From Talaromyces rugulosus (taxonomy: Eukaryota > Ascomycota > Eurotiomycetes > Eurotiales > Trichocomaceae): a stretch of 64,000 bases of DNA. The position numbers and the translations under genes are program-made. Of this stretch, positions 2,133-56,647 are shown piece after piece; positions within the stretch are counted from its first letter, which is position 1; every line of letters begins with the position of its first letter. A model generated the notes under the pieces. The model ran no database searches. It was not told where the DNA came from and saw only the letters and a program-made list of their open reading frames with translations. The stretch lies in NCBI RefSeq assembly GCF_013368755.1, contig NC_049562.1:4836001-4900000 (forward strand), given 5' to 3'.

Positions 2133-4617
2133 CCGAGACCGGTCTTCTTCATGAACAGATTCCTCAACTTCACGGCTCTCTATTTCACGAGGCATTTCAT
2201 CATCGACGTAGGCACGGTTGTAGGGTCGATGCCCGCATGAGACACAAATTCCGCCGTCGTCGATGTCGCCATCCTTCGCACCGCCGCACTACCAAAGCGC
2301 AACAAAAGGTTAGTATGCATTGCTAAAGGAAACAAAGAAAGAAATAGGATGGGTTGACTTATAGCAACACAGGGGGGAAGCATATTGGTTGGTCTTGGCC
2401 TGGAAAATTCGGGGATGCGGATTTATTGTTGTGAATTTGGAGTAAGAGAGACGAAATATTTAGATTCTTTAAATATATTTATGTTGAAGTGTACAAATGC
2501 AAACTGAAGAAGGAATATAAGGAGTATTTATAGACAAACATGGCGGAGTATTATAAAAACACATCTATTATCAACTCCTTCTTTAATATGTAAGGCCCTC
2601 GATCAGGCAACTTAATTCGTTTAGGACTCAGACCCTTGTCGCTAGCTAGCGCCTTCAGCTATTTCAATATTATATAAAAATAAACTAATGTTCTGTAGAT
2701 ATACTAAGTATATCACATTTATAGCATGTCCATGTACCAGTTAACCCTTTTTCGCGTTATATTTCCTATTTTAGCTAGATTAAAGCTATCAAATGTTTAT
2801 TAGTTTGAGATCACATCCAGGATTAAAGAGATCTCAAGTGATTTGTTTTCTATAAAAAAAATAGACATTATTTGAAACCTATAATTATTTCAGCCTGGCG
2901 GCTATGACTTGTCTCCTAGTCGACCATAGGCCACAGTCGCTTCATATCACTGTAAGGAGTACCAAAAAGAGACCCCTTAGGGAGTGGGGATTCTTAATAA
3001 TAGTCACATATTGACGAATTCTTTACTAGTTTACCAAAAATAGAGACTCTTTGATGAGAATTCTCGATTGTCATGTATTTTGTTTGTCATGTTGTGACCT
3101 ACGCTCCAAGCCTTGAGCAATATTTCATCCTTCCGAGTTTAGACTTCAGAGTAGCTTTCAGTTGGTATTATTATATAGAAGTAATAGATAGCTAAAAAAA
3201 AAAAAAAAACACCTCTAGAGTCTCTTTAAGTATAAAGTCATAGACACATAGATATTTAGCTTATGTGTCAATTGATGTTCCAAATAAACCATGAGAAAAC
3301 AGCCAAGGTTTAAAAAGCACACTTTATTGCTAATAATTGACAAAAGTTTGCCGAATATCCTGCCTTTTGGTACAATAGTAAATATATCGTGAATTAATGA
3401 TATGAAAATAAAACGCATCTCACGAATTGTACTAGAATTTTACGTAGGATTAAGAAGCTTATTCGATATTTAAAAACGCATTCAATAGCCGATGTATTCG
3501 AGATACTATATAGAGTGTTTTTTTTTTAAAAAAAAATAATTAGTCGGCAGTATACTCTTTATTGACTCAGCTTCTTTATTTAGCTATATAGTTGATGTAC
3601 TATTGCTCCTAAGGCTGAGCTTACCAAGTGGTGGCTCTACAAAAAAGAAGCCTATATCCCTCGGCCTTTGTAGCTACTTCACGGTAGTCAAACCAATTGA
3701 TTTCATCAAGCTTGTCGATTCTACACGGACGACTGTAAATGTGCCCCTTTCTTTTAAAAAAAATAGAGTAATGAACCCAGTTTACAATGGCAGATAAATA
3801 TCATTTGAATGAAACATTTTGAAATTGAAATTTGATTCGTCACAACATTGAAACATAAACCCAGTCCTCCCGAATTGACAATGCTATTCATTGAGCTACA
3901 CACAATCATTATCAATTATTTAATATCTATATTGCAACTTTGCTATATCCTTCTATAAGTGAACAAGAAAAAGAAGGAAAAAAAAAAAAAACAAGTGAGG
4001 TAAACCATCAAAAACAGTAACATTGGTGTGCTGGTATCTGATACCTACCTAGCATTCACTTGCAGCATTTGACAAGGTTTTGGGCCGCGCGATTGTTGGT
4101 CTCAAGAAAGGAGAAAGAGAAAAAAAGACCAAATAAAACATCGTAGACTGGGCCCTGAACGCATCTATTTATACAAAATGAAAATCAAAAAGGTGCGGTC
4201 ATCACGGAAAGTTATACATCGCGTCAAGATGGGTATGTGACTCGACTCAAGACTCGGTGCCTCTCCACAAGTTTCGCTCTTCTCACTGCGCTGTTCGTTC
4301 AAAAAATAAAAAATAAAACCATATTCAACACATTCAACGCAGCAGGATGGAAAGGACGAGGAAAATAGGAAACGGGTTGCTCAACAGAACCAGCCCTTCG
4401 CTTCAAGACAGAAAACATCACCATTACCCGAATTTATCAACACGCCGCTTGTTTTTAAGTAAGACAACCAGTGTAACGCCAGGGAAATGGAAGCAAAACG
4501 ACAAAAAAAAAAAAAGACAGGGAAAAAGATCAAGTGCCGAGAGTTCAAATCGGGCTTTCCCTGCAAAGTAATATGCATGAAATATATGTTCAATTCAATG
4601 AATATGGTGTATCATGA
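2133..4617. other. AT-rich gene-poor spacer
   Basis: About 2.5 kb with many stops in all frames and several homopolymer tracts (A17 near 3195; a T/A run near 3520-3537; A13 near 3979). No gene, rRNA or convincing tRNA is visible. The last few hundred bases probably include the 3' UTR of the minus-strand glycosyltransferase gene that ends at 4618. Confidence 0.6.
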
Positions 4618-6210
4618 TCAAGCGGTTCCCTGAGGGTTGAACACGCCGGCACCGCCACCACCCTTGGGGCCGAGCCAGACGAGTTCGATCAGGCTGTGGC
4701 TCTGGTCCTCCTCGCGCGAGTAGACCTGGTGAACGTTGTCTCCGATGATGGTGGCATCGGACAACAGCCAGCGCTCTTTGGTGACGCCGTCAACGTCCTT
4801 GGGGCGTAGAGGGCCGAGACTTTGTTGGTACCCACTCATGTCCTCCTCCCAAGTCTTCTCACACTCGTCAAAGTTGATGGCATTCTCGGGGGTGCTGGCC
4901 GAAAGAGTGTACTTGACAATGGAGTAACCGTTGGTAAGCACCCAGTAAGTACGAATGGATTGGCCGGTGGTTGCGTCCACGCTGGTTTGTTGGTCAAAGA
5001 TCCAGCGGCGCAGGACCGATCGCTTACCGGCAGCAGCTGCGACGGCGCTCATCTTGACGACGTCCTTGGTGTACCAGCTGGACCAGTGGTGCAAAGTGTG
5101 GATGGGGCGGCCAGACTCGAAAATTCCGTCGGGAGCACCAGTAATGTCCATCTGGTAGAGGGATGACCAAGCGGTAAGCTGGGTGTTACCAAAGCGCTCA
5201 ATGCACTGGCCCAGCTTCTGGTCACCAGGCTGCTCGCCCCAGGACTGGCATTCATCGTAGTTGGCCATCAGGCCTGCCAGCAGCGGTGTGGACACAAAGA
5301 CTCCGGCACCACCAAAGCCCATGTGGCCCCAGGTGTCGACCTGCCAGCTGGCCTCGGAGAGGGCGCCAATGTAGTGCTTCTTGGACGAGTCCAGCTGTTT
5401 GAGTTGCTGGGCGACGGAAGCGACCGAGGGTAAAAAGGTGTCGTCGTCGATGAACGAGACCCATTGAGTCTGGGGTCGCTTGGACTTGATGTGGTAGGTG
5501 AACGCCTCGACGAGGCCGAAGTAGCGGGCGGTAAACTCCAAGGGAGAGGACTCGAGGGTCACGTCGAGACCGCGAGAACGGAAGTAGGATTCCTGGACGG
5601 CCAGGTCGTCGTCGGATTCGGGGACCAAGACCAGCAGGCCAGCCTGGGAATCACCCAATGAGTACAGAAGCGAGGGCAACATGCGCTCGAGACGGTCGAC
5701 GGTGGTGGCGAGACCGAAGAGCATTTTGGAGGTCTCGACGACATCGTGGTCCATGGAGACGTCGACGTCAACGACGGGCGGACATGGCAGGGGCTGGCCC
5801 TTGTTCTCGGGCGAAATGACCAGGCCACGCTCCAGCGCGTGGAAGGGAGGTAGCACGGGGGCCTTGATCTCCTCTAGAGTCTTGAACTGCTTGTCGCCGC
5901 TAACGTGATGAGGACGGATATAGGAGCGGGTGAAGTTCTTGCGCTGGAGCCATTCGGTGAAGGCGAGGGGGGGAGCAGAGGCGGGATCGAATTCGCAGCT
6001 GCCAAAGGTCTGCGGAGGCAGCTGCACCTGGGGCTTCTGGGGGGTGTTGGTATTCGAGACAGCAGCGGCGGCTGTATTCTGAAGCTGCTCGATGGGCTTC
6101 TTGAGGTTGGACAGGGCCTCGCGATCGTAGCGGTCGATGCCCCAGAAAAAGAAAACGATGGAGAGGATGGCGACGAGGGGGAAAACGGTTTTTAGGCGCA
6201 GGATAGGCAT
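4618..6210 (-). CDS. Fringe-like glycosyltransferase (GT31-type), type II membrane protein
   Basis: Single-exon gene of 530 aa. A short basic N-terminus (MPILRLK) is followed by one membrane segment at about residues 8-24 and a Ser/Thr/Pro/Gln-rich stem (about 40-75). The lumenal catalytic domain carries VSFIDDDTF, with the acidic triplet at residues 255-257; this is the DxD-type nucleotide-sugar/metal site of fringe-related enzymes. Further on, HHWSSWY matches fungal GT31-type proteins. It probably acts in the Golgi as a sugar transferase; donor and acceptor cannot be told from sequence. The start at 6210 is chosen because the membrane anchor follows directly. An in-frame ATG 12 codons upstream (6246) is possible, and the frame stays open further up without a good start. 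A long polypurine tract lies about 450 bp upstream. Confidence 0.85.
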   Translation of the reverse strand: MPILRLKTVFPLVAILSIVFFFWGIDRYDREALSNLKKPIEQLQNTAAAAVSNTNTPQKPQVQLPPQTFGSCEFDPASAPPLAFTEWLQRKNFTRSYIRPHHVSGDKQFKTLEEIKAPVLPPFHALERGLVISPENKGQPLPCPPVVDVDVSMDHDVVETSKMLFGLATTVDRLERMLPSLLYSLGDSQAGLLVLVPESDDDLAVQESYFRSRGLDVTLESSPLEFTARYFGLVEAFTYHIKSKRPQTQWVSFIDDDTFLPSVASVAQQLKQLDSSKKHYIGALSEASWQVDTWGHMGFGGAGVFVSTPLLAGLMANYDECQSWGEQPGDQKLGQCIERFGNTQLTAWSSLYQMDITGAPDGIFESGRPIHTLHHWSSWYTKDVVKMSAVAAAAGKRSVLRRWIFDQQTSVDATTGQSIRTYWVLTNGYSIVKYTLSASTPENAINFDECEKTWEEDMSGYQQSLGPLRPKDVDGVTKERWLLSDATIIGDNVHQVYSREEDQSHSLIELVWLGPKGGGGAGVFNPQGTA

Positions 6211-6656
6211 GGTGGAAGATCGTGTTGGCTGAGAGTTTGACAGCATAAGAGCGTGTGTTGGTGCCGGGAGAGTTGTAGCGGCGTGTTCCCAAGCTTGATT
6301 GGGGACTAGTGAGGTAACCCTAGTGCGCTGTGTCTGTCTCGTATATTCTCGGCGTTGATGATCCTCGAATGCGAAGTAATGGAATAAAATTAATTGGCCG
6401 GCGAAGAGGACTGTACAAGCGAGTGAAAGGTTGCGTCGAGACCAGCGCGACACTGTTCGGACGAGACAGGGCAGGAAGCAAGGCAGACGAACGCACGGAG
6501 GAGGAAGAGAAAGAGAAAGGAAAAAAAAAAAAATTGAATAAGAAAGATCAAAGGCCGGCGAGAGGAAGAGAACAGAGAACAGGCTAGCTGGGATTAGCAA
6601 TTTTAGCACCGAGGGTCTAAACCTGACAAGCGCTCGTAGCTGGTCTTGGCTTTGGC

Positions 6657-6729: not shown

Positions 6730-7834
6730 ATAAAGTGGGGATGGGCGAAAAAGGCGATAGGGGGGGAGGGCCGCGGCTGCTTAGTGGTGGTTTTGGCGGT
6801 TTAGCGGCTAATAAAGTAGACCCTGGTCCACCGCGGCGGCCCCCTTGATGGTGGCAGCCTGGCAGATTGGACATGTCGATGGTTATTATTGCTGTTGGTG
6901 ATTGTCGCGATTGTCCGTGATTATTACTGCTTCAAACGTGTGCTCACTTGCTCACTGATGCTTCGCCACAGTGATTACGGAGGATGCGCTCTTACGCGGC
7001 GGGCGGACCTGCTGTCCTGGCCACTCACGAGCCCTCCTGACTGGCTGGCCGGCCTGCGCTAGGCCGAAACACGCAATCTAATGGGTCCGCTCTGGCCAAT
7101 CAGGCAGCACTCGTGCCGGAATTGCGACGACCCACCTCGGACATAGCGCCAATCAGAAAGCGGGGACGGCCCCCGCTGATCCAGCACCGGGCCCGCTGTG
7201 ATTGGCTTGCTTTTGCCGCCACTGACATCGGGCGGGGCGATTGTGCAGGGGCCCACCCGATGCCCCACAGTCCCTTTGCGGACCGTTTCATGCTTCTTCT
7301 GAATCTCTACTTGTATAAGTACATGTATAGACGCCGGATGGATGTATGCAAGTCCTGTGTCACCCGAGAACCGCTCTGTATCGCCGCACTCGAACAAACA
7401 CTCATCGTCTTCCGCATTGAATCATCCGACCCTCAATTACGTCAGGGGTACACTCTACTCCGTAGTATCTCCACATCGTGGGATTCCGGCGATTGATCTT
7501 CAGGCCTACTACGTATACTAGCACACGGGCTTCATCTTATACGTAGGAAAATTTAAGAATACTAATTAGCCGCTTAGCGGACACCTTGGCCCTGGCCTGC
7601 CTGCTCGCGGCCGCTGGCGGGCCGGCAGGAGATTAAACTTTAATCTGTGCCTGAGGCAGCTAGTACTAATGTACTCTCTACCCAGTACTAGTGGCACACC
7701 CCTGTCTGCATGAGACGTAATAAGTTGTAACTGCTCAAAACGGTCCAACTGGAGCCTGTACGACACGTGTGTACAGAGTACGTACTACGTACGACACATT
7801 AATTAAAAACTGCCAAGCCCGCTCATATCGCAAA

Positions 7835-7858
7835 GGTACGTACTTTTTACTACGTACC
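7835..7858. repeat. Inverted repeat GGTACGTA/TACGTACC
   Basis: Perfect 8-bp arms (7835-7842 and 7851-7858) around an 8-base T-rich spacer. It belongs to a cluster of six TACGTA sites at 7510, 7540, 7779, 7786, 7837 and 7851. It might bind a dimeric regulator, but no function can be assigned. Confidence 0.55.
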
Positions 7859-8381
7859 ACTCCACCTAACTGTCCCGTTCCTGGCATTCCTGGCCAAGTT
7901 CCAACAGAAAAAAGCGTCGATCTCGGCATCGATCGTCTCCACTTTCATCATCCTGGCCGGACTTGTCATCTTTTTTCTTCTTCGGAAGTCTGTACATATG
8001 AAGTTGCATTTACGGAGAGGATGATAGTAGTATGGCATGGTCTAACGTCTTTGCTAATAGTAATCGCTCACTGTACCGGGGCTGTTCATTTACTTTGCGC
8101 CCGTGATCTGCGCGCTTCCCGTTTGAAAATGTGGGTTTGCGGTATCACGACAGAATTAGTACTACGACTCTACTCCGTATGTGAAAATAATGATGCACCG
8201 AGTAATAATCAGAATTAATAAAATAAAATTCGTCCCGCCATGACGTCCTTGAATCTAACTCTTGCAACCCTTATCTGCACCTATCCGCTGGTTGCATGCA
8301 TGCATGCATAACTCGGTCTTGGCAGACGCTAAAGGAAATCCTAGTTCGGCTCAATTCATCTACGGAATATCTACAAGCCAA

Positions 8382-10218
8382 TCAATCGTCGTCGTAGTCC
8401 TCTCGGTCCTCGAATTTCATAAAATCGTTATCATCATGCGCTTCGTCTCCCGCGACAGCCTTCCATCCGGCCCGCACGCTCTCCACAACCTCGTCATCAA
8501 AGGCCAGGTCAAGGCTAGGCGGTGGAAAAAAAAGGACCTGATCTGAAGTGCTACTGCGATGAATCTTGTCGACACTATCGGTCAGGTCCAATGATCCAAT
8601 CTGCGTGAAGCACAGTCTCCACAAGACAGTCGGTTCGTCTCCGCTGTCAGCAAATGACTCGAGTAGCAAATCCACTGCCTTTTGGAGAAGTCCCTGACCT
8701 TCCTGGCCAGATATCGAGACGCTTCCGTAAATGACACCTATCGCCACATACCAGATTAGCAAAATACTTTGTGCAAGAGTACAGTAAATGCAAAGCCAGA
8801 AATATGAAATAATGCTCTCTTTCAGTTATTGATATAGTTTCACCAATGACGTTCAGCCAATGTAGATAAGTTTGAAAAAATCATCACGAGAGAGCATTCA
8901 CCAAAAGAAAAGGAAAAAAAAAAAAATAATACTCACATTGTCCATTAGGGCATTCTCCCGTCTCGCTGGAGTGAATCAGTAAATGAATTGGTGGCGCATC
9001 TGCGGTTTCACCAGCAAGAACCTGTCCAGGGACAACCACCACCGCCCCTGCTGGTACTGGACCGCCTTCAGCAGTAGGTGGGAAAAGACGACCTAATGAC
9101 GACGAGACGACCGAGATCGATCGTGCCACTTTGTGTGTTGCAATCCGAGGTCCATTCTCTTCCACGGGCAAATCCCACAGCGAGCCTACAACATATCGGC
9201 TGCGTATTACTTCGCCATCTGATAGGGTGACTTGGTGAAAACCATCCTCGTCTTTTTGTGCATCGATGGACTGGATCCCTCGACCGAGGACATACACGCC
9301 GCCGCCCACTGCGAGCGCCCGGCAACCGACCTGGGCAATCTCTGCACCACAGCCCCATCTGGAAACCAAACTGCCAAAGCCCGGACCAAACAGCCCTATT
9401 GAAGCGAGGTGTCGCTTAATCCGAGGCACGGCAAATTTTGCACTTGTCTGCTGCGGCGACTGCTGGCTCAGAGACAGAGACGCCAGTGCATCGTAGAGTT
9501 CAGGAGGAGCATTGAATCTACTCGTCAGATACTCAGGAAATGGTAAATCCAGATCCTCTTCAACGACGGGTTTGTCATCACCGCCCATCTGGGCTGGTTG
9601 ATTGATGCTGCGAAGAAACTTGATCAGCATCCTCTTTGCCTTCATGCTAATCGAGTCATCAGCGAATATATCTTCGCGACTACTTGGTACTCGTTGAAGA
9701 CGGCTAGCCGCAGAATGCCCGCAGATCCACCAACTTCCCACTGCCTGAAATTCCAGTTGGCGGTAGACCCTGGATGAGACAAGAGTAGGAAGAAGCTTCG
9801 AGCGAGTGTATACAACGAATGGCGAAAGAGAAAGAGTGTAAGCTCTCGAGGCCGCAGCTTTCTTCCCATCAGATGTGGTTGACGGTACGTGAATGGAGAC
9901 GTCTTCGAATGGTCCTCGGCGAGGATCTAAAACTAGTCAGTAATGCATGCGTATCATCGGGGACTGAACATACCTTGATTCACCGAGTCCGCCCACTCTC
10001 GCGCCTCCTCGAGACTAAAGGCGGCTTCGGAACCGCCGTAATATGTGTTTTTGTCCACATGGAGAATTTTCTTGCCTGACCGGGACAGGGCTCTAAGATG
10101 GTCAGAAAAACAACACATGCGAGGTTTCCCAGTGACCGACTCACAATGCGAGCAGCGACTGCGCGAGCCCTGTCCCAGAGATTGTTACATCCCACGACGT
10201 GTCTGCGAGGGCCTCCAT
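8382..10218 (-). CDS. MRS6: Rab escort protein (Rab geranylgeranyltransferase component A)
   Basis: REP presents newly made Rab/Ypt GTPases to geranylgeranyltransferase II and delivers them to membranes. Four exons on the minus strand: 10218-10145, 10092-9974, 9926-8937 and 8737-8382, giving 512 aa with all junctions in phase. The first exons carry the GDI-family dinucleotide-type fold: SGTGLAQSLLALALSRSGKK, then DKNTYYGG. YTRSKLLPTLVSSRVYRQLE and VSRWGCGAEIAQVG follow, matching the GDI/REP core. The C-terminus is very acidic (DREDYDDD). The last intron (8738-8936, 199 nt) is long for this window but has GTGAGT, a GCTAATC branch-like site and an AG. The REP assignment over plain GDI rests on the divergent middle and acidic tail. 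Confidence 0.88.
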
Positions 10219-43222: not shown

Positions 43223-43744
43223 TTTCGTTCTTTATTTTTTGAGGAGGTTTGACTCGCTCTGCGTACGGTGCTGGTTGCCCTAGTCCTTCACCTGAAGCCC
43301 TAAAGTCTATCCAAAGGTGTGGGTGGAGATTGGTAATAATGCAGAGAAATGTGGACCCGACGCTTAGTCATATTGTTTGTTTGGCTTGTTTGCACCATGA
43401 TCTTCATCTCCCAATAAATTTGATACTCGAATTAATAATTATTTTTATAATAATAAGGTTTTTAACACAAATAATATTAGTACTATAGTAATATAATAGT
43501 ATAATTGTTAAAAATAAAAAGTGTAATTTTGGAAGTAAAGTGCGGGGCACCAATACATCAATATTTAGTCCGCCTTGTACATACCAACAACGGACTTCAG
43601 CCGGACCAATTTCAGCCTGACAGAGGAAGGCATGATACAGCTTACAACCAACTTTATCAAAGGCTAGTAAATATTTATGACATTGATTTATTACTGCATT
43701 TAGAGCTAATTTCCAGTTGATTTCCCTCATTCCTGCACCGCCAA
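43223..43744. other. Upstream region of the NLR gene
   Basis: 522 bp between the 5S gene and the NLR start. It is AT-rich with TAATAATAT stretches at 43430-43500. It must hold the NLR promoter. Nothing else is visible. Confidence 0.45.
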
Positions 43745-46700
43745 ATGCCGAAACGACGCCGTCCATCCGTCGAAGACTATGCCGTCGGTTGGATATGTGC
43801 CCTGCCGATAGAACTCGCTGCGGCGATGGAAATGCTTGATGAGACGTACGACAGCTTTGAGAACGGCGGCTCCAGCAGATACAACCTCGGTCGAATCAAC
43901 GAGCATAATGTTGTGGTGGCTTGTCTGCCCAAGGGTCAAATGGGTACCAACTCCGCTGCAACAGTTGCCGCTGAGTTGAAATCTTCATTTCCGGCAATTC
44001 GCTTCGGGGTCCTCGTCGGAATTGGAGGAGGCGTGCCATCAGCGGATGCCGATATTCGATTGGGAGATGTCGTTGTCAGCCTACCCGGCAAGATGCATGG
44101 TGGAGTGATACAGTATGACTTTGGGAAGTCTACGCCCAACGGGCTTGAGCGGACGGGCTTTCTAAACGCTCCACCGGCATTACTACTTGAGGCCGTCGCA
44201 AGGGTTCAAGCCAGCCATATAAGAGGACAAGACACCCAGCTCCGCGAATATATCTCCCATTTTAACCGCGTACCGGCATTTTCATCAGCAAACCTGGGAC
44301 AAGATGTGCTGTTTGACGCGAACTATCGCCATATCGGAGGGTCTACGTGCGAGAAATGCAGCAAGGAAAGAATAATGAAGCGAGGGTTGCGCAACAATGA
44401 TGTTGTAATCCACTACGGCCTCATTGCCTCAGGAAATAGGGTTATAAAAGATGGCGCCGAACGAGATCGCGTGGCCTCTGAACTCGAAGGCGTACTCTGC
44501 TTTGAGATGGAAGCGGCTGGCATGATGAACACTTTTCCATGTCTGGTCATTCGAGGTATCTGCGATTACGCTGACTCTCACAAAAATAAGGAGTGGCAGC
44601 CGTATGCAGCGGCAATGGCCGCAGCCTATACAAAGGACTTGTTGTCAGTCATACCACCAGCCGCAGTGGCACAGACACGAACTATGATTGAAAATCTTAG
44701 GGAGAAACAAGGTTGGTTGGAGGCCTGTTGATAAATGCCCCGTGCTTACCAGTTGAGAATTTAGTGATTGAAGAGACCCTCAACCGCCTACCATGTGCCG
44801 TTGAAGCGACTTTTAATTCATACCGAAGACAGCACGAGCGCACATGTCTTGTAGGCACTCGAGTTCATGTCCTTGAGGAGATCAACAACTGGAGTAAAAA
44901 GAACGATAACCAGAGCATTTTCTGGCTCAACGGCTGGGCAGGAACGGGGAAATCGACAATTGCTGGTACAATTGCGCGCCAGTACTATGATGAGCAACGT
45001 TTGGGGGCGACATTTTTTTTCTCTCGAGGCGGCGGAGACGTCGGCCATGCTGGCAAGTTTGTGACGACTATTGCCCGGCAACTTGCCAGTAATATATTGC
45101 CCCTACAGCAATTCGTGTGCGAAGCTGTTGCATCGTATAGTGCTATAGGAACGCAATCCCTTGGTGACCAATGGCGTCACCTTATCCTCAATCCGTTGTC
45201 AAAAATGGGCAGCGGCTCTGGTTCACCGTCATACCTCGTAGTCATTGACGCTCTTGATGAATGTGATGACGACAAAGGCATCCAGGTAATTTTGGGTCTT
45301 TTGACCGAGACACACCCCGCGTTTAGCAACATACTAAAGGTGCTTATCACAAGCCGACCTAATATCCCGATTGAGGTTGGTTTTTCTCACATACCACCAG
45401 CAAACCACCGTGCCTTCATACTGCATCACCTACCGTCGGAAATCATCAGTCACGATATCGTATTCTTCTTGCAGCATGAGTTACAAACCATAGCTCAAGA
45501 TCAGGCGCTTGAGCCCGCATGGCCGGGTGCCGAGGCCATCGAGCATTTGGCGACCCGCGCAAGCGGCCTTTTCATATGGTGTGCAACCGCGTGCCGTTTC
45601 ATAAAGGAGGGGGACTTTTACGCTGAGGAAAGGCTGAATAGCCTTCTTAAAGGAAGCACATTGAATACCGCACCAGAGGAACGCCTTAACGAGATTTATA
45701 TGTCTGTCCTTAGAGCAGCCATTCTCTCTACTTATACAGAACAAGAAAAGGAGAAACTTTATGACCATTTAAGGCATGTCCTTGGAACTATTGTCATCCT
45801 ATATTCTCCGCTCCATCTAGAATCCATGTGCAAGCTGATCCAAGTTCCTAAACAGCGAGCTGCAAAAATGCTTGTGCGCCTTCATGCTATATTAGATGTT
45901 TCCGACGACCTTACAGGACCACTCCGTCTACACCACCCGTCGTTTCGCGATTTCTTGGTCGATAACCATAGATGCAGAGATCCGGATTTCCTTGTGGATA
46001 AACGCAGGATGCATCACCAATTAGCAGCGAACTGCATGAAACTGATGAGCTCTACCCTCAGACAGGATATATGTGGTGTCAACGCCCCTGGAACGTCAGC
46101 AGACGATATTGACGAGACTCAAAAACAGCAATGCCTCGTGTCGGAAATTCAATATGCGTGTCTCTACTGGGTACAACATCTTCAAGATTCTAATGTCTTG
46201 CTAAAGGACGGTGACGCAATTCACCAATTTCTAATTGACCACGTTCTTCATTGGCTTGAGGCACTCAGCTGGATGCGAAGAGTTTCTGAGGGTATCAGGG
46301 CATTACTTTCCCTTGAATCTCTTGCTTCAGTAAGCTCCCTCTGATCCTTGCGCGTAGCATAAGCTAATACTATATTTCAGAAAAGTAAATGTCCCCAAGT
46401 TAACAATCTTATCTGGGATGCTAAACGACTTGCTCGAGTCAATCAGTCAATAATGGAAAAATCTCCGCTGCAAATTTATTTCAGTGCACTTGTGTTTGCA
46501 CCTTCGACAAGTCCAATTCGCAGCCGTTTTAGTCATGTACCAATGCAGTGGATTTCAAAGCTACCAACAATTCGAACTCATTGGAGCTCTTTGCAGCAAA
46601 CACTCGAGTGCAATCCTGATCGGGTTCTCCATATTACTTTCTCACCTGACGGGACTGTGCTTGCGTCAACATCAGGTCAAAAAGTTCGTCTCTGGGACCC

Positions 46701-48918
46701 TTCAAGCGGACAGTGCCTAAATACACTTCAGGGCCAAGATGAGCTACAGACACTGGATGATGAAGTAGATGAACGTGATTTTAGCAATCTTTTTAGCACT
46801 ATCGCTTTTTCGCCTAACGGGAAAGCCCTCGCGTCAGCATCACCAGCAATTAGTAGGGTGTGGCTGTGGGATGTATTAACCGGGCAGTGCCTGCAAGTGC
46901 TCCACGGCCACACTCGTGCAGTTAATCAAGTGGCGTTTTCATACAATGGGGACATACTTGCATCGTCATCATATGATCAGACGGTCCGCCTGTGGGATCC
47001 GTGCACTGGAAACTGCCTCCAGATTCTTACGGGGCATACAGATTGTGTTCGTGCACTCGCCTTTTCACCTGTACCACGTTTTGCAAATATACTTGCATCA
47101 GTTTCAGATGATGATAGCATACTGATTTGGGATTCAACGACGGCAAAGTGCCTACAGGATATCAAAACTAATGATGAAGAGAGCCGTGTCCTTGCCTTTT
47201 CCTGCGACGGAGAGATTCTTGCATCAGCATATGGTGATAAAAGTAATATACACCACTCAGACGCATCCAAGATACAGCTGTGGAACCCGATAACCGGAAA
47301 AAGCCTACATATACTCCAAGGCCATTCAGACAAGGTGACCGCAATTGCTTTCTCCCCTAATGGAAAGATACTCGCATCCGCGTCATGGGATGGTTCGGTA
47401 CGGCTATGGGATCCTTTGAATGGACATTGCCTTGCGATACTTCAGCATTATGATCATGTATATGACGTTGCGTTCGCGCCTGATGGTAAAACACTGGCAT
47501 CAGCAACAAGCCATAACGACAGTGTGTGGCTTTGGGACCCATTGACTAGACAATGTCTGCAGACTATGGAAGGGCATAGCAGCTGGGTCCACTCGGTCGC
47601 TTTCTCACCTTCCTTGAATAACAGCGAGAAGCTACTCGCATCAGCAGCATTGGATGATAGAGTCATACTTTGGAGCACGTCAGCTGAGCAGGCCCAGGAA
47701 ATAGCTCCAAATGAGAGTGATATATTCAGATATTTCTGTCCATTACCTAGTGGAAAGAAACTGGTGTTATTAAATGATACGACAATACAAATTTGGGATT
47801 TATCCACTGGGCAGTGGCTGCAGACAGTGGATTATCATAAAAGTGTGACCATATGGCCGTCGATTTCGCCTAATGGGAAGATCGTACTAATCACTGATCC
47901 TAACCAGATACTGATCTGGAATCCATCGAATGGAGAGCGTTTGCAGACATTCAGTGCCCACGCAATCAAATCGTTCCATTTCTCACCAAACGGAGAGAAG
48001 ATCGGATTAATCACTGCCGATAACCAGATAATGATATGGAATCCATCGAATGGAGAGCGTTTACAGACAGTTAGCGCCCATGCAATCAGATCGTTTCGTT
48101 TCTCACCAAACGGAGAGAAAATCGTATTAATCACCGACGATAACCAGACACTAGTCTGGAATCCATCGAACGGAGAGAGTTTGCAGCCATTGAACGCCCA
48201 TAAAAGGTGGATTGGAGCGGCGACTTTCTCACCAGACGGAGAAAAATTTGCATCATTATCTGTTGATTCAATGCTCCAGATCTGTGATATGTCGACTGGT
48301 CGTTGCTTGCAGATACTCCAGACGAGTGTATCTGGTAGATATCATGGATATGGATTCACAATTACTTTCTGTCCAGATGGTTTGTACGTGGCGTCGTCTT
48401 CTGGTGAAACAGCCCAGCTTTGGGATGTATCCACGGGACAGTGTCTTCAGACACTTGAGGGCCATATTAACGCTATTTCTGTGATGGCTTTTTCCCACGA
48501 TGGCAGGTTACTGGCGTCAGCGTCAGGTGATCCCGGAAGCGATTGGGCATACTCGAGATCTAATGCAGATAACAACACTCTGCGGCTTTGGAATCCTTTC
48601 ACTGGACAGTGCATACACATTCTCCATGACACCCCTGGCATAGAAAATCTTTCATTTTCAAGCGATGACCACTATCTCAACACAAGCTTAGGCGTTCTTT
48701 CCCTTGGGTCTGTTATCAAGTCGACCGAAGCGAACCATGATACGAAACCGCAAACCCATGGAATCTTCATTAAGAATTCTTGGATCACGTGGAATGGCCA
48801 AAACCATTTCTGGCTTCCCCCAGAGTACAGACCACAGTACACAGCTGTCTATGACAATGCCGTTGCAATCGTAACCGGTGACCACCGGATGATTTTTTTT
48901 AACTTTACTCTCCAATAA
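43745..48918 (+). CDS. NLR/STAND protein: PNP_UDP - NACHT - WD40
   Basis: Complete fungal NLR of 1693 aa in three exons: 43745-44711, 44753-46329 and 46381-48918. Domain 1 (about 10-320) is a nucleoside-phosphorylase-type PNP_UDP domain with VGIGGGVPS and FEMEAAGMM, so its active-site motifs look intact. Domain 2 is NACHT: Walker A GWAGTGKST (383-391), Walker B VVIDALDECD (from 486), and LHHPSFRDFLVD near its end. Domain 3 (from about 915) has around 14 WD40 repeats, some nearly identical. Such proteins are switch-type receptors for non-self recognition in fungi; ligand binding by the repeats would activate the N-terminal effector. Intron 1 is only 41 nt (GTTGGT...TTACCAG) but restores frame exactly, so a small frame-changing deletion is the alternative. 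Intron 2 (GTAAGC, GCTAATAC, TTTCAG) is clear. Confidence 0.9.
47881..48180 (+). repeat. 120-bp near-identical WD40 repeat units
   Basis: Units starting at 47881, 48001 and 48121 (the last partial) align at exactly 120 bp spacing and share long identical stretches such as GGAATCCATCGAATGGAGAG. Each encodes a 40-residue WD40 repeat with IWNPSNGERLQT and FSPNGEKI. The remaining repeats of the protein are much more diverged. Confidence 0.85.
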
Positions 48919-49729: not shown

Positions 49730-52621
49730 CTAACCCCCTGACCACTTGTAGCTCAACCCCAAAATTCCGCGGCCCATTGATATCGATCTTGAGTTTTGTC
49801 TCCGGGCCCTGACAGCAGCTAAATCTTGCGTAGTCAACGGTGGTGGAGGTATTTGGCCGTCAGCTGACCCTGGAGGGACCAGTGTCCAGGGTTCGTTCTC
49901 GAACCATTTATCATCAAAGACATCAATATTTGCTAGAACATCCTGTGTGTCTTCCTCTCCCGAGCTCGGTGAGATGAAACGGAGCAAGTCCAGGTAATAT
50001 GACTGGCCGCTGGCCGAAAATCTCCGCGCTCCAAGAGCCAGACGTCTATCTTCGTACAGTGAGAATCTAGGTTGTTTGAAAGTGGATGAGGCAGAAAGAA
50101 CGTCGTAAAAAAATGATGGAACGGGGCCTTGGGGTTCCTCGCTCCGTCCCAAGCTGTTGAGCTCCTGTTTCTCCCAACCGAGCGGGATTCCAGAACTCTT
50201 CAAGGGCAATAGATTGATATCAATGCTGCTCGCTGTGTTTTGTTGAAGGAGTGCAATAATGCGATAAAGTGAGTTGTTGTCGATTCTCCGTTGGACCTTT
50301 TGAATTTTTGATATGGTGGACAATGATGGCTGCAATTGTTGTTGTTGCTTGTGAAGCGCAACATAAAGAGCCGGGCGATTTTCGCGATTCCGTGCATTGA
50401 TGAAGAAACCAGACCGAATAAGGCTTTCAACAGCCGAGTAATTTTCGGCGAGAACAGCGTCATGCAGAGCGGTATTCGTACACCCTGTCGTGTCTTCTGC
50501 CAGCTCTGGGAGTTCTCCCGTCACGTAGAATCTCGTACTGGGCATGATGTGTTTGCTCTTTACAAGTCTCTTAAAACTAATGCAAATATCCTTAACAGAG
50601 AGATCTCCGTATCCATTTTTGGAGAACTCAGCTGACAGGCGAAGAAACCGGAGAAACACAGTTTCGCCACCTGGGTTGAGCACTGTCTCTATCCGAGCAC
50701 CATGTTCTAATAGAAGCAGGAAACGTGCCACTCGCTGCTGGATACTAAGTTGATCATTTCGAATAAAACGATATCCAAAACTATGAGGCTTTGCACACAC
50801 AAGGCGGAAGATACTCCCCATATGTTTTTCATCGTGGAGCTCCGAAGCCCCTATATCACCTCGACACAGCCAGGCTAAGACCACAAAGTCATGTGTGTCT
50901 TGAACGTACCGGTCAATCATGTTAGTTAACTGACCTTTTCTTATTTTTGCCCAACAACAGAGAGGAAATCTACTCCGGAGTCGCGCCAAAGCATATGTTT
51001 GCACCTCGTCTCGACGCTGAATAGACGCCGCAAGATTATCGTGCAATATGCGCAGACGAGGTTCAGAAAAACATGTACGGACAGGATGTTGAAACATGTC
51101 AATTGAAGTCGGATTTGCTAATCCAAATGGTTTGCAATACGTTTTGAATGCCTCTAGATACGCCTCGTGGCGTTGAGGAGAGGCCACTAGTTGTGGTTCT
51201 GGTGCAGGGCCATCGTCTTCCAGTTGCTGCCACCCTGTAAGGCAACAAAAGCAAATCTTCTCTCGGCGCGATCTTGAAGATAAACCATTTGCATATTCAT
51301 CTGGCTTAGGATTCAGACAGTCTCGAATGGCATGGCGAACGTTGCTAGTCTTTTTGGCGAGTTCGCGCCGTAGTCTAACTCTCACGCCAACACGCTGATA
51401 ATTCTCCTTGTCCAAGTATTTCCACGGATGACGTAGACGTGTATTAGCATTTTCCAACAAAGCTCCTTGAACGGTTAAGATAACCCGTCGGTGTTCGTGT
51501 TGAGGAATTGTTCCTAGATTCGTGAGCTGCTGTGTGGCTAGTCCAAAGGCATTTCCACTCATCTCGGTTTCGTGAGAAAGTGGAGGCTGACCGCAATGTC
51601 GAAAGACACTCCAGACAATTAATCCAAAGGCAAATATATCACATAGTTGAACTCCACGTACATTGAGTGGGTCGCGATCTTGTCGATAATACTCAGGGGG
51701 GCGCCATCCTGGGGTTCCACGATACTCGATGGAGCCTGAAGAGGATTCTGATTCACTTGCGGACAATCCAAAATCGCACAACTTAGCAACCCACTTCCCG
51801 GAGTCCTGAAATATGAGGATATTTTCCGGCTTAAGGTCTCCATGGGCAATAGAAGTCTTATGGATAGCGTCTAGACCGCGTCCAATGTCAAGACATATAC
51901 TGTGAAGGTCGTTAAAGGTATGCTTCGGCGGATAAACGGCTGGATGAGCAAGAAACTCCGACAAGTTAGAGAGCGCTCGTTCCAATATCAGCAAGGGGAG
52001 TCTCGGGGATTCTTCATCGTCTTCCTCGAGGGTATCCAGGCACAGGCCCCAAGATAAGAGGCGCACAATGTTTGGATGCTTGCGGAATGAATTCTGGCAC
52101 AGAATATCAATCTCTTGATGCGCTGCACTGCATTGAAACACAAACTCTTCAGAGCTGATGGCTGCAGGGGAGGTCTGGAAGCGTCTGCTGCTTGGCCTAG
52201 TAATACGAGAGCGCTTTACTGCCACTCTTGTCAGGTCTTCAATGGGAGCAGGAAGGTTTTTCGGTTTGACCCCAACTTCCGATAAAATTGACTCATTGAA
52301 TGCAAAAACTTCTGACTGTGCGCCCTGTCCCAATGGAAGAGTAAACTCGCTTCTCATCCTCAAAAGCCTAGGTCCCGGTATGTGGTGTTCTTTGAGTGTT
52401 ACCATTAAATTTCCGAGAACAGTAATCGGGTCTGAAAAAGCAGCAAATCGATCAATGACACTGAAAGTGCCGTATTGGTGGCTGCCACGAGCGATGCTGT
52501 CAAGCACACCAGATTGACTAAACAGTCGATCCAGAGATGAGAAGGCTACTCGTGGTACAACAGGAGATCCCGGACGAGGTGACGTGTCACCGTCTGGGGG
52601 GTGAATATCTTGACCTTCCAT
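49730..52621 (-). CDS. Protein kinase with C-terminal ankyrin-like region
   Basis: 963 aa in one exon, starting at the ATG at 52621 (the frame is open further up but without ATG). The kinase domain covers about residues 90-400: glycine loop LGQGAQSEVF, Lys136 in RVAVKRS, catalytic loop HGDLKPEN (260-267, Asp262), DFG at 283-285, and GTPGWRPPEY for the activation segment end. All key catalytic residues are present, so it should be an active Ser/Thr kinase. A long middle part (about 400-700) has no clear domain. An ankyrin repeat follows at about 710-755 (NTALHDAVLAENYSAVESLI, then RSGFFINARNRENRPALYVA). No membrane segment is seen. It is divergent from the HeLo-like/pseudokinase gene and convergent with the NLR, so the three lie side by side. 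Confidence 0.82.
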   Translation of the reverse strand: MEGQDIHPPDGDTSPRPGSPVVPRVAFSSLDRLFSQSGVLDSIARGSHQYGTFSVIDRFAAFSDPITVLGNLMVTLKEHHIPGPRLLRMRSEFTLPLGQGAQSEVFAFNESILSEVGVKPKNLPAPIEDLTRVAVKRSRITRPSSRRFQTSPAAISSEEFVFQCSAAHQEIDILCQNSFRKHPNIVRLLSWGLCLDTLEEDDEESPRLPLLILERALSNLSEFLAHPAVYPPKHTFNDLHSICLDIGRGLDAIHKTSIAHGDLKPENILIFQDSGKWVAKLCDFGLSASESESSSGSIEYRGTPGWRPPEYYRQDRDPLNVRGVQLCDIFAFGLIVWSVFRHCGQPPLSHETEMSGNAFGLATQQLTNLGTIPQHEHRRVILTVQGALLENANTRLRHPWKYLDKENYQRVGVRVRLRRELAKKTSNVRHAIRDCLNPKPDEYANGLSSRSRREKICFCCLTGWQQLEDDGPAPEPQLVASPQRHEAYLEAFKTYCKPFGLANPTSIDMFQHPVRTCFSEPRLRILHDNLAASIQRRDEVQTYALARLRSRFPLCCWAKIRKGQLTNMIDRYVQDTHDFVVLAWLCRGDIGASELHDEKHMGSIFRLVCAKPHSFGYRFIRNDQLSIQQRVARFLLLLEHGARIETVLNPGGETVFLRFLRLSAEFSKNGYGDLSVKDICISFKRLVKSKHIMPSTRFYVTGELPELAEDTTGCTNTALHDAVLAENYSAVESLIRSGFFINARNRENRPALYVALHKQQQQLQPSLSTISKIQKVQRRIDNNSLYRIIALLQQNTASSIDINLLPLKSSGIPLGWEKQELNSLGRSEEPQGPVPSFFYDVLSASSTFKQPRFSLYEDRRLALGARRFSASGQSYYLDLLRFISPSSGEEDTQDVLANIDVFDDKWFENEPWTLVPPGSADGQIPPPPLTTQDLAAVRARRQNSRSISMGRGILGLSYKWSGG

Positions 52622-53028
52622 TGAGTGCTGCCCGATAGCAGTGAAGCAAGCAAAGGAGACCAAACTTAGGTTCTGAACGTCACACCTTTTATTCGACTTG
52701 ACATGACTTCTTGCGGCGCACCTCAGTTATTTTAGTTTTGACTGGGAGGCTGAAAACAACGTACGAGGCCCATGACAAGGCTGAGATACGCGGGGCTGAG
52801 TCTACCCCGCATGACTTGCTGACCTGTATTTTCTTTTGCCTCATCAGACTAACATATTACCGGCAGAAAAAGGCGTGTTTTTATTTTTTGAAAAAGATTG
52901 TGACCTGAATGTTGAGGCGTCGGACGTTGTGAGGGCATGAAACTTTGTTCATCGGGTGACCCTCATGAATAAAACACGTATCTTGCTTCGATCTACACCT
53001 CCAGATTTTGACTCGTGGCTTGAAAACT
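52622..53028. promoter_or_regulatory. Shared 407-bp divergent promoter region
   Basis: The starts of the kinase-ankyrin gene (minus) and the HeLo-like/pseudokinase gene (plus) are 407 bp apart with no other gene between. A shared promoter would give coordinate expression of the pair. No specific binding site can be named. Confidence 0.55.
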
Positions 53029-54871
53029 ACAATGGAAGCAGTAGGGCTAGGGCTGGCTGTCGTGACAGCCTTCAAGGAGCTATACTTGACAGTGAAATTT
53101 ATCCATCGACTAGTTTTCAGCGCAAAACATTACAAGGTGGAAAAAGAGGATTTGCGGCAAGAATTCCACCTTGAAGTCCTCTATCTGCAAAGCTTTGGGC
53201 AGCTTTTGGTAGAGAATAAGGGTATTTTGAAGGAAAGCCATCTCAATACTGTTCGTCTTCCCAGGTTTCTTATCTTCATATTCAATTGGTTGAGATTTCT
53301 ATGGTGTCATTAGTGCGAGGATGGAGTTTCTGATAGCGAAAGGATAAAGGGTCTTGAATGAATAATCTGACGAAAAGGAACATCGTGTTTTATAGGCTTG
53401 GCTGCGAGAAATACATGCCATTTTTGAAAGACTACGACTCCATTGTGGCGATCATGCAAAATTGGCTGCGGCTCAAGACAATGACTACCAGTCATATTCT
53501 CCATATTTGAATCATTCCACAGCCGTGTCAGGGGTTATCGAATTCGAATTTGATATCCCTTCCGAGCCTCACGAGATAAAAAAGTTTTTGGAACTTACAA
53601 CGCTGAAAAGATTCAGTTTTGGGTGGTTTACCACTATACGGCCATCGGCAAATTGGGACTCCTGGAAATGGGCCCTGTTTGAGAGACGGAGGTTCGAACG
53701 CTTTGTGGCTGAATTTCAGAAATGGACAGCCAAGATCAAAGACCTAGTACCATTGATGATGGCGTTGAATCCACATTATGATAATTCTTTGGTCCTGGAC
53801 AAGCTGATCACAAATGAGCATTCTCGTCGGGTTGGAGTGGCACCTCACGCATCACTTCGACGTTTAGCTATCGAACCAGGACTGGACCAAACAAACTTCT
53901 TTATTGAAAATGTTAAGCTAGATGCTCCTCTGGAAGCCGAGTGTCTAACTGTTGCAAATCTGGTGAACACTTCCGATACACATCCAGAGCCCGAGAAAGT
54001 GCTTGTTGAATATAAACGATATGGCAGTGACACTGATGATGTCGATATCGAAAGTGATCATCAGACAGAGGAAAGAGTCCATCAATTAGCCAGTCTTCTC
54101 TCCTCAGCCGGGACACACGGCCTTCATACTCTGGAATTTCGTGGTCTAATCAACCAATCCGAGGGGAAGCGATACGCATTTCTCTTTAACTTCCCTCCCC
54201 CATCATCATCGGATCGGGTCCCAACCTCCCTACACTCACTAATGTCGAGACATACCACATTAAGAATGTCGCTTCCCCAGCGCTTCCGGGTTGCAAAGGA
54301 TGCCGTGACTGCAGTGTCTGCCTTTCATGCGGATGGTTGGGTTCACAAATCAATTCGCAGTCATTCCATTGTTTTCTTTCCAACGATCACTTATAATTCG
54401 TCTTCATCCCCTATCCAAAATGAAGTTACGTTCGGTGACTGCTATTTAACCGATTTCGAATTTGCTCGACCAGAAACCGCACAAACACAGTACACGTTTG
54501 ATAATCATCTCGAGAAAATCCTGTACCGGCATCCGGATCGTCAGGGGCCTCCGACGGTTAGCTTTCGAAAAATCCACGACATCTACGCCCTAGGGGTGGT
54601 TTTGCTAGAGATTGGTGTCTGGCAGACAGCGTTGAGCATCTATCAGCAAGCACATAAGAAATTAAAGCCTGGAGTTACGATGAGTCCTCGGGGTATTCAA
54701 AACCTGTTTATTGAAATTGCAAGGAGACAGTTGCCGCATCATATGGGGCCAGCATATCGTGATGCAGTTGTCAAGTGTCTTTTAGGTACTGGTTTTGGCG
54801 AGGAAGAGAATTGGGTGATGACTTTTTATGAGGAAGTAGTGCAGAATATTGACGTTGGGAAGTTGCAGTGA
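53029..54871 (+). CDS. HeLo-like domain fused to a pseudokinase
   Basis: Two exons, 53029-53250 and 53396-54871, giving 565 aa. The N-terminus (MEAVGLGLAVVTAFKELYLT, FHLEVLYLQSFGQLLVENKG, AWLREIHAIFERLRL) is the helical HeLo-type N-terminal domain of fungal incompatibility and STAND proteins; in HET-S this fold inserts into membranes. A kinase fold starts at about residue 270: Lys281 in VLVEYKRY, HKSIRSHS (391-398) in place of HRDLKPEN, and DFE (427-429) in place of DFG. The catalytic Asp is replaced by Ser393 and the glycine of DFG by Glu, so it is probably a pseudokinase. The intron (145 nt, donor GTTCGT, acceptor TTTATAG) has a weak donor but restores the HeLo-type sequence. HeLo is inferred by eye from sequence pattern. 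Confidence 0.75.
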
Positions 54872-55164: not shown

Positions 55165-56647
55165 CTATTGTAAGTTTACGTATTTTTGTATCCATTCATC
55201 CTCACTAAGCTCCCTTGCAGAGCCCCGCTTGTTAGAATCCCACTGCAGCATTTTCCGGACCATGCGTAAAAAGAGCTCTCTCTCCTCTTGTCCCTAGAGA
55301 GTGGTTTCTCGTTCCTCCAGTGGAACCTGGTCCGTCAATAAGTTTTCGGTAAGGAATTTGCCTGGAGTGGTAGATCGTTAGTGGATTTGGGTATTTGACA
55401 AACAGGCTGACTTACCATCATCGGAACAGAATTTGTCTCTCAGCTTCCCCTGGGCAAGAAGACTAGCCGGAGGGGGGCCAAGAAGATTGATAATCTCAGC
55501 CAAGTGGGCTCGACTGCGGTATTTCTGAAACTCGGGAACGTAACCGGCGAATAAATGGCCCCCTTCATACATGTCCCAAATATGTCATCTCATCTCACAC
55601 GTTAGCAATTTTATCCTATAGTACCAATAATGAAAATGACAAGGTTTTGCTATACCATGCACCCTACGTTCCATATATCGATGCTACACGTCCATGGAGC
55701 CTCGAGAATAACTTCTGGGGCTCGGTATACATTAGGTTGAACGAATTCCGAATGGTACTGGTCCCCAAACATGGCCGAACCAAAATCGCATAGAACCAGA
55801 AGGCCTTTGTTCTTCGGTACCATTAGCTCGCGTGATATGTAAATCGTTCTCCCATCCGCGTCAACCTGTTCCATCGGAATAGGCTGCTGGAGCTGCTCTT
55901 CTTCAAGATCGACACAGACCGAATCATCCTTGATACCAATCATGATATTATCGGTCTTGATATCTAACGGAACGAGTAAGTAAGAGAATAATGAAAGGCA
56001 AATGTGCTACATACCAGTATGGACGATATGGCACTCTGTATGTAGATAATCCAATGCCAAAAACATACGATAAAGCACGACTGCCAAGGCCATCGATGGT
56101 AGCCTCTCAACCGGGTTACGGCGTAAAAAGGTCAACACGCTCTCCCACGATGGATGGTGTACAAGATATCGGTGCTTTTCATGAGGGCCCTCGATGTCAA
56201 AAGTATCAAGGAGCGTTCTGATGGCATCGCGGCCAGGGTGGCCACAAGGAGACCACTCTATATATCTATACATCTTGAGCTCATCATCCACTTTCTCGGC
56301 CATGAACGAAGCCTGTACACAGATTTTGAGCACAACGTAGCGACGGGGCACTGATTAAAGCGTGTCAGCGGTGATGGACTTCGCTACTTAGAAGGTAAGC
56401 TGAGCTCACTCTATGTCCCGTGCAAGCCACACAGTCGATGTAGACCCAACCCCAATTTCCCAACGACTTGATATCGTTCCTTTATAAGCTCTCCTATTCG
56501 TGTAGGGTAATATCGCGACGCGACATAGTCTGGAAATTTTTCTTCTTCGATTTTGTGGTGTTCGGGGATCCGCGCAAAGGTCGCGTTGGAGAAATCAAGA
56601 AGTTTCCATCTCCGTCGAGGTAGAGACTGGAGAAGCGACGATAGCAT
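55165..56647 (-). pseudogene. SRPK-type protein kinase, decayed
   Basis: Reads as a complete SR-protein-kinase-like gene from ATG at 56647 (RYYPTRIGELIKERYQVVGK) to TAG at 55165-55167 (DEWIQKYVNLQ). Motifs are the glycine loop remnant SSTV-like STSTVWLARD, RRYVVLKICV, CHIVHTDIKTDNIM, LCDFGSAMFG and PNVYRAPEVILEAPW. It carries several lesions. The glycine loop needs one more C at 56445-56447. Exon 2 needs one G fewer at 56345-56348. The intron after NVGCM has a good donor and GCTAAC branch but no usable AG before WDMYEGGHLF. A TAG at 55294-55296 interrupts ERETTL*GQEERELF. Two other introns (55964-56014 and one after CSDDG) are intact. The combination argues for a real pseudogene. Confidence 0.78.

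Follow-up and report, generated by a model that had tools for sequence, protein, structure and literature searches.

In mammalian RIPK3–MLKL an active kinase is matched with a pseudokinase that is fused to a membrane-type helical domain. In fungi, necroptosis-like death is described in the searchable literature, as far as its accessible text goes, as proceeding via NOD-like receptors (NLRs) and amyloid templating, and the latter is how HET-S is described as being switched. For the kinase half of the animal pathway, that literature, which is restricted to papers outside subscription, yielded no equivalent in fungi. Here we analyse two divergent genes in a 64,000-nucleotide stretch of the Talaromyces rugulosus genome (contig NC_049562.1, positions 4,836,001–4,900,000; hereafter the window), one encoding an intact protein kinase with a C-terminal ankyrin-like region and the other a putative HeLo-type helical domain joined to a pseudokinase. 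On balance, we think it likely that the two form a cell-death module of two parts that works like RIPK3–MLKL, with a role probably in the response to non-self or damage.

The window pair has the same composition as RIPK3–MLKL, and its pseudokinase resembles MLKL in the replacements found in its catalytic loop and following the DFG position. It differs in that the N-terminal domain appears to match HeLo rather than the N terminus of MLKL, the two fungal genes are linked, the kinase bears ankyrin-type repeats and no amyloid-type pattern common to both partners was found. The layout also recalls HET-S/NWD2 and the clusters of HeLo and NLR genes, in which a HeLo-type effector adjoins its presumed activator, divergently in some species (accessible parts of PMC3321046 and PMC10197012), but here a protein kinase takes the place of the NLR as neighbour, and a pseudokinase replaces the amyloid domain.

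Relatives of each half have been described. Fungal HELL-kinase/pseudokinase proteins, which likewise join a helical death-type domain to a kinase-like domain, are mentioned as MLKL-like in a 2025 review, whose accessible text names neither a partner kinase nor a kinase gene pair (PMC12881547). On the kinase side, FfkA–C of Aspergillus nidulans are fungus-specific ankyrin-repeat kinases of patchy distribution and unassigned function, the best Neurospora crassa hits of FfkB and FfkC carrying the consecutive numbers NCU06582 and NCU06583; in its accessible text this account makes no link to HeLo genes, and the word 'HeLo' is absent (PMC3591445). Wheat Pm13 and the plant MLKL-type proteins are described as MLKL-type proteins in plant immunity but, unlike the window pair, belong to plants (accessible part of PMC10951266). 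Each half is known separately; we have seen no description of the kinase/HeLo-pseudokinase pair itself in the searchable literature.

The pseudokinase and its putative HeLo domain

A sequence-only reading of the window had pointed to two divergent genes, an intact kinase with the catalytic loop HGDLKPEN and a DFG motif, and a pseudokinase in which HKSIRSHS and DFE mark the loss of the catalytic Asp. All of these motifs are present. The kinase frame runs uninterrupted from a Met at 52621 to a stop at 49730–49732, and the start codons lie head-to-head, although 410 bp apart instead of the 407 bp first given. The HeLo-pseudokinase is a protein of 564 residues encoded by two exons, and its alignment with the homologue P0004 is free of gaps at the splice junction (coordinates in Table 1).

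We found 248 homologues of the pseudokinase and aligned the 120 listed. The HRD Asp is missing in every one of these, with Ser in its place in 111. The VAIK Lys is retained in 107 (Arg in 9), and at the place of DFG, Phe occurs in 117 and Glu in 116. The position of Thr437, within the pseudo-activation loop, is held by Thr in 96 homologues and Ser in 23 (119/120), whereas adjoining positions vary; among the 22 relatives that are linked to a kinase (see below) it is Thr in 19 and Ser in 3, and hence a possible acceptor in all 22. This conservation is compatible with a phosphate acceptor.

In a profile search of the PDB the pseudokinase was matched best by MLKL (6vbz, E 2.4e-6; 4m68; 4btf), with IRAK4 behind. 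Judged by sequence, MLKL is its nearest solved relative, a stronger likeness than could be known at the outset. MLKL was absent from the best 50 rows of both PDB fold lists, which derive from a whole-protein model and are no evidence against this likeness.

The N terminus of the window protein appears HeLo-type, weakly in this copy and clearly in two paralogues from the same genome, where the Pfam HeLo match is above cut-off (32.5 bits at locus L034 and 110.5 bits at L035). HeLo is matched at E≤0.01 (best 6.9e-9) by 62 of 93 full-length relatives and at E≤0.1 (best 1e-9) by 14 of 15 N termini, and is the sole Pfam family with broad support. The best PDB sequence matches of an N-terminal profile were to HET-s, marginally (E 0.28–0.30), and no MLKL chain was matched up to E 10. 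Homologue P0004, as modelled, consists of helices to about residue 252 and ends in a folded kinase domain. The earlier HeLo assignment gains support from the relatives and, marginally, from the rank of HET-s; the window copy itself stays below the cut-off, as does its Pfam Pkinase match.

The kinase and its ankyrin-like region

Homologues of the kinase numbered 174 at E≤0.001, and again the 120 listed were aligned. Their catalytic residues are nearly invariant: the VAIK Lys is present in 119, and the HRD Asp, the Lys and Asn that accompany it and each letter of DFG in all 120. Pkinase was matched in 35 of 35 kinases scanned (the window kinase and 34 relatives), and matches at E≤0.01 to Ank_4, Ank_2 and Ank_5 occurred in 8, 8 and 7 of them, respectively. 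The window kinase has a single Ank_4 unit, just above its cut-off, which sits within a C-terminal region predicted to be helical (about residues 482–795); the profile stretch 706–756 matches a DARPin in the PDB. The model of the whole protein, in which the C-terminal part is likewise predicted helical, has a mean predicted local distance difference test (pLDDT) score of 77.6. For this region the original label of ankyrin-like seems fair, and that of ankyrin fits in part.

Paired loci in T. rugulosus

We searched the T. rugulosus genome (35.8 Mb, six contigs) at the protein level, which ignores introns, so all locus counts are lower bounds. At least five pseudokinase loci are present: the window and L034 to L037. 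HeLo is matched in four of the five (window, 17.5 bits; L034, 32.5; L035, 110.5; L036, 20.5). Among these HeLo-bearing loci, three (the window, L034 on C4 and L035 on C3) are arranged head-to-head with an intact HRD/DFG kinase and ankyrin repeats, their start codons separated by 410, 347 and 235 bp; the latter two gaps were derived by hand from the listed frames, the upstream frame being taken as the first exon of the L035 kinase. At L035 the ankyrins lie inside the kinase frame. At L034 an ankyrin-repeat frame (6962–9511, +) follows on the same strand, 272 bp past the kinase frame, as part of one spliced gene or as a second.

The three pairs are strongly diverged. The pseudokinases of L034 and L035 are 30% and 27% identical to the window copy and 29% identical to each other; for the kinase domains the corresponding values are 31%, 24% and 22%. 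Copies only 22–31% identical are therefore not the product of a recent segmental copy. Pkinase stretches number at least 142 in this genome, a density of about one per 250 kb, from which we estimate that a kinase would fall by chance within ~3 kb of three of the four genes roughly once in 10^4 to 10^5 cases.

The two other loci depart from this arrangement. L036 (C3:4218000–4227900) contains a frame of 1166 residues (3056–6553, +) with the loop HGNINSNN and a DUF7580 match of 26.9 bits against a cut-off of 27. In L037 (C6:221500–231000) a pseudokinase relative with HKDIRPEN, in which the Asp is retained (4220–5347, −), lies tail-to-tail with a kinase gene (1528–2728, +); two pieces scanned gave no HeLo match, and the locus was left out of the HeLo count. 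L037 may show the pair in an intermediate or rearranged state.

Linkage in other fungi

Linkage outside this genome was deduced from exactly equal-sized contigs and from locus-tag numbers, and not from DNA. The protein lists report the longest contig per cluster, and 174 kinase entries (120 and 54 more) were compared. Exact contig size is shared with a kinase homologue by 22 of the 120 listed pseudokinase homologues, where 0.22 are expected from shifted sizes (maximum 3 in 1000 shifts). Nine of the matching contigs are ≤30 kb and seven >400 kb. Matches were made by 20 of 80 entries on contigs ≥12 kb and by 0 of 32 on contigs <8 kb. Five pairs carry consecutive locus tags, in Penicillium nucicola, Aspergillus alliaceus, Cudoniella acicularis, Fusarium solani and Colletotrichum gloeosporioides; these account for four of the seven contigs >400 kb, and for the other three (501738, 862304 and 1980765 bases) a shared contig is all that is indicated. 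The matches are spread over several parts of the pseudokinase tree. Pairing is recurrent, its universality being unproved.

All 22 linked kinases retain the HGDxK..N loop and a DFG. Distances between partners correlate across 23 pairs (Spearman 0.68; 0 of 2000 permutations). Whole-protein likeness between partners is slight, a BLAST hit at E≤1 being obtained in 3 of the 23 pairs. Regular expressions, a weak test, detected RHIM/PP-like patterns in 1 of the 23 pseudokinases and in 2 of the 23 kinases (those of the window and of the linked pairs) but never in both partners; the window kinase has no simple RHIM/PP pattern by the same weak test.

A proposed relay and its alternatives

On sequence evidence the pairing is more than chance, with conserved residues in both partners, three paired loci in this genome and linkage elsewhere. 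In the relay that we propose, the kinase-ankyrin protein would be sensor and activator, its helical-repeat and ankyrin region holding the kinase off or binding the trigger. Once active, the kinase would phosphorylate the pseudo-activation loop, with the conserved Ser/Thr (Thr437) as the likeliest site. Not an enzyme, the pseudokinase would serve as a switch, a change in its shape releasing the N-terminal HeLo helices, which would then oligomerize and damage the cell's own membrane. Contact between the partners, phosphorylation, membrane action, cell death and the trigger are all steps that we infer. Since no RHIM/PP-like pattern is common to both partners in any of 23 pairs, a kinase relay is favoured over amyloid templating.

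The sequence-only reading had likewise proposed a two-part, RIPK/MLKL-like module, and this interpretation is supported. It had named two results as fatal to itself, an N terminus unlike HeLo or MLKL folds and a pair present in this genome only. The N terminus matches HeLo, below the cut-off in the window copy but with wide support among relatives, and the pair is found beyond this genome, as judged from the 22 equal-sized contigs and five consecutive-tag pairs, besides occurring at three loci within it; hence neither result was obtained. The RIPK side of the comparison does not carry over to the listed matches of the kinase, and that either partner controls the other is what we infer.

Several observations weigh against the proposed relay. 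The HeLo match (PF14479) of the window protein reaches 17.5 bits over the whole protein and 20.0 bits over residues 1–250, with a gathering cut-off of 23.2. Compared with a profile built from only three same-genome HeLo segments, the N terminus gave a probability of 1% over 28 columns, and the listed fold-search rows obtained with the whole-protein model are all kinase matches, with none for the HeLo part. The lead of MLKL over IRAK4 is ~5 bits, and parallel loss of the same motifs could contribute to it. In the paralogues at L034 and L035 the conserved Thr aligns less cleanly. The best 60 of 1712 PDB profile matches of the window kinase include BRAF, LRRK2, CTR1 and others but no RIPK, and its 50 listed fold matches are headed by RET, Pto and IRAK4, not RIPK; among the matches listed, the kinase seems not specifically RIPK-like. 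As for linkage, L036 is an unpaired relative, whose 9.9 kb contain no motif of an active kinase. Moreover, 98 of the 120 listed pseudokinase homologues have no match, 60 of them on contigs ≥12 kb, although only listed matches could be compared and some absences of a kinase partner are consequently not real. The first 45 leaves of the pseudokinase tree include no match, and the correlation of partner distances could stem from shared species history.

Signalling might run in the opposite direction, from pseudokinase to kinase, in a sensor–decoy system of the plant tandem-kinase kind, where the pseudokinase baits a foreign factor and holds or releases the kinase. Plant immunity has kinase–pseudokinase combinations, the fold list of the kinase includes Pto and IRAK4, and the ankyrin-type region could serve as a binding platform. 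We nevertheless regard such a system as unlikely: it is the pseudokinase, in the position expected of an executor, that carries the domain of membrane-acting type, and a loop Ser/Thr in 119 of 120 listed homologues suits a substrate better than a decoy.

Slightly less likely still is that the genes are co-regulated neighbours without a direct biochemical link, for example through one bidirectional promoter serving both in a region of immunity genes that evolves fast. A promoter alone hardly explains the three pairs of this genome, which have diverged strongly, the linkage in several fungal genera and the complementary active and inactive catalytic residues, even though the window has another immunity-type set (PNP_UDP/NACHT/WD40, 43721–48918), the related locus L036 is unpaired and fungal cell-death genes cluster, according to the accessible part of PMC10197012.

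We hold it improbable that the HeLo-type helices are a mere scaffold or oligomerization domain and that what the pair regulates is development or stress rather than death. The weakness of HeLo in the window copy would fit such a role, but the L035 pair combines a strong HeLo match (110.5 bits) with the same architecture and arrangement. The ankyrin-bearing Ffk kinases of A. nidulans, possible kin of the window kinase, are listed as viable on deletion and are reported to have no mutant phenotype found, according to the accessible text of PMC3591445, yet a conditional death module would likewise lack a deletion phenotype. Least probable of all is that an NLR switches the HeLo-pseudokinase, as executioner, by amyloid templating in the way that NWD2 switches HET-S, with the kinase as accessory: HET-S and NWD2 form a HeLo system of two genes, which are divergent in Podospora anserina (accessible part of PMC3321046), and past the kinase gene there is an NLR-type gene set, but the recurrent neighbour is a kinase, no pair has a RHIM/PP-like pattern in both partners (23 pairs; a weak test) and the modelled relative P0004 ends in a folded kinase domain.

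The relay from kinase to HeLo-pseudokinase has a wider form, namely that ascomycetes carry a conserved necroptosis-like relay of two genes, duplicated repeatedly, whose ankyrin kinase phosphorylates the HeLo-pseudokinase as executioner; for this the case seems to us evenly balanced. If true, control of a membrane-killing bundle by a kinase acting on a pseudokinase would either be ancestral to fungi and animals or have been invented twice, and the linkage of the genes would make the pair a unit of innate immunity or allorecognition. With the pair present in genetically tractable fungi, whether the logic of RIPK3–MLKL is ancient or convergent becomes directly testable. The relay would also give a predicted role to two fungal groups without assigned function, the DUF7580/HeLo pseudokinases and the ankyrin kinases.

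Feature coordinates

Table 1. Positions of the two genes and their parts in the window
Feature	Position	Strand	Basis
Intergenic region between both start codons, 410 bp	52622..53031	.	Frames of both genes; head-to-head
HeLo-pseudokinase exon 1, 73 codons	53032..53250	+	Many homologues begin with a similar N terminus
HeLo-pseudokinase intron, 145 bp	53251..53395	+	GTTCGT donor, CTGAC branch-like site, TAG acceptor
HeLo-pseudokinase exon 2, including stop	53396..54871	+	Open frame
HeLo-type helical domain, Pfam match at residues 26–192	53107..53752 (intron included)	+	Sub-threshold Pfam match
Pseudokinase domain, about residues 255–560	53939..54856	+	
Degenerate catalytic loop HKSIRSHS, residues 390–397	54344..54367	+	HRD Asp position in homologues
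Thr437, candidate phospho-acceptor in pseudo-activation loop	54485..54487	+	Homologue conservation
Kinase-ankyrin-like gene, 963 residues	49730..52621	−	Uninterrupted frame, no intron needed; Pkinase 77.6 bits
Intact protein kinase domain, about residues 85–363	51533..52369	−	Pkinase match and residue conservation
Catalytic loop HGDLKPEN, residues 260–267	51821..51844	−	Sequence and homologue alignment
Single ankyrin-type match, residues 719–758	50348..50467	−	Ank_4, 23.0 bits against a cut-off of 22.7

Other loci and neighbouring genes

Five further T. rugulosus loci, L038 to L042, carry a DUF7580 pseudokinase-like domain. In L038, L039 and L040 it is joined to PNP_UDP-type sequence (by Pfam in L039, by eye in the other two), and in L041 and L042 it is followed by sequence that looks subtilase-like by eye. 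No active-kinase motif was found within the 9.9 kb of any of the five, nor HeLo in the pieces scanned of L039 to L042 (L038 was not among them). From their sequences these loci would represent other effector combinations with the same type of pseudokinase.

Within the window, past the 3′ end of the kinase gene, there is an NLR-type set (43721–48918, +) that consists of PNP_UDP_1, then NPHP3_N/NACHT, then WD40 repeats. Frames at 1–2132 (+) resemble, by eye, the NB-ARC/TPR portion of one more receptor-type protein. An additional kinase, SRPK-like by eye and perhaps with introns, is present in pieces at 55650–56354 (−); the piece at 56007–56351 gave no match and that at 55650–56003 a Pkinase match of 38.4 bits. 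Elsewhere in the genome, L002 encodes a stand-alone strong HeLo protein (1480–2355, +; 118 bits) just downstream of a frame that by eye looks NLR-like and has an ankyrin-like end, and may be a cluster of the HET-S/NLR type.

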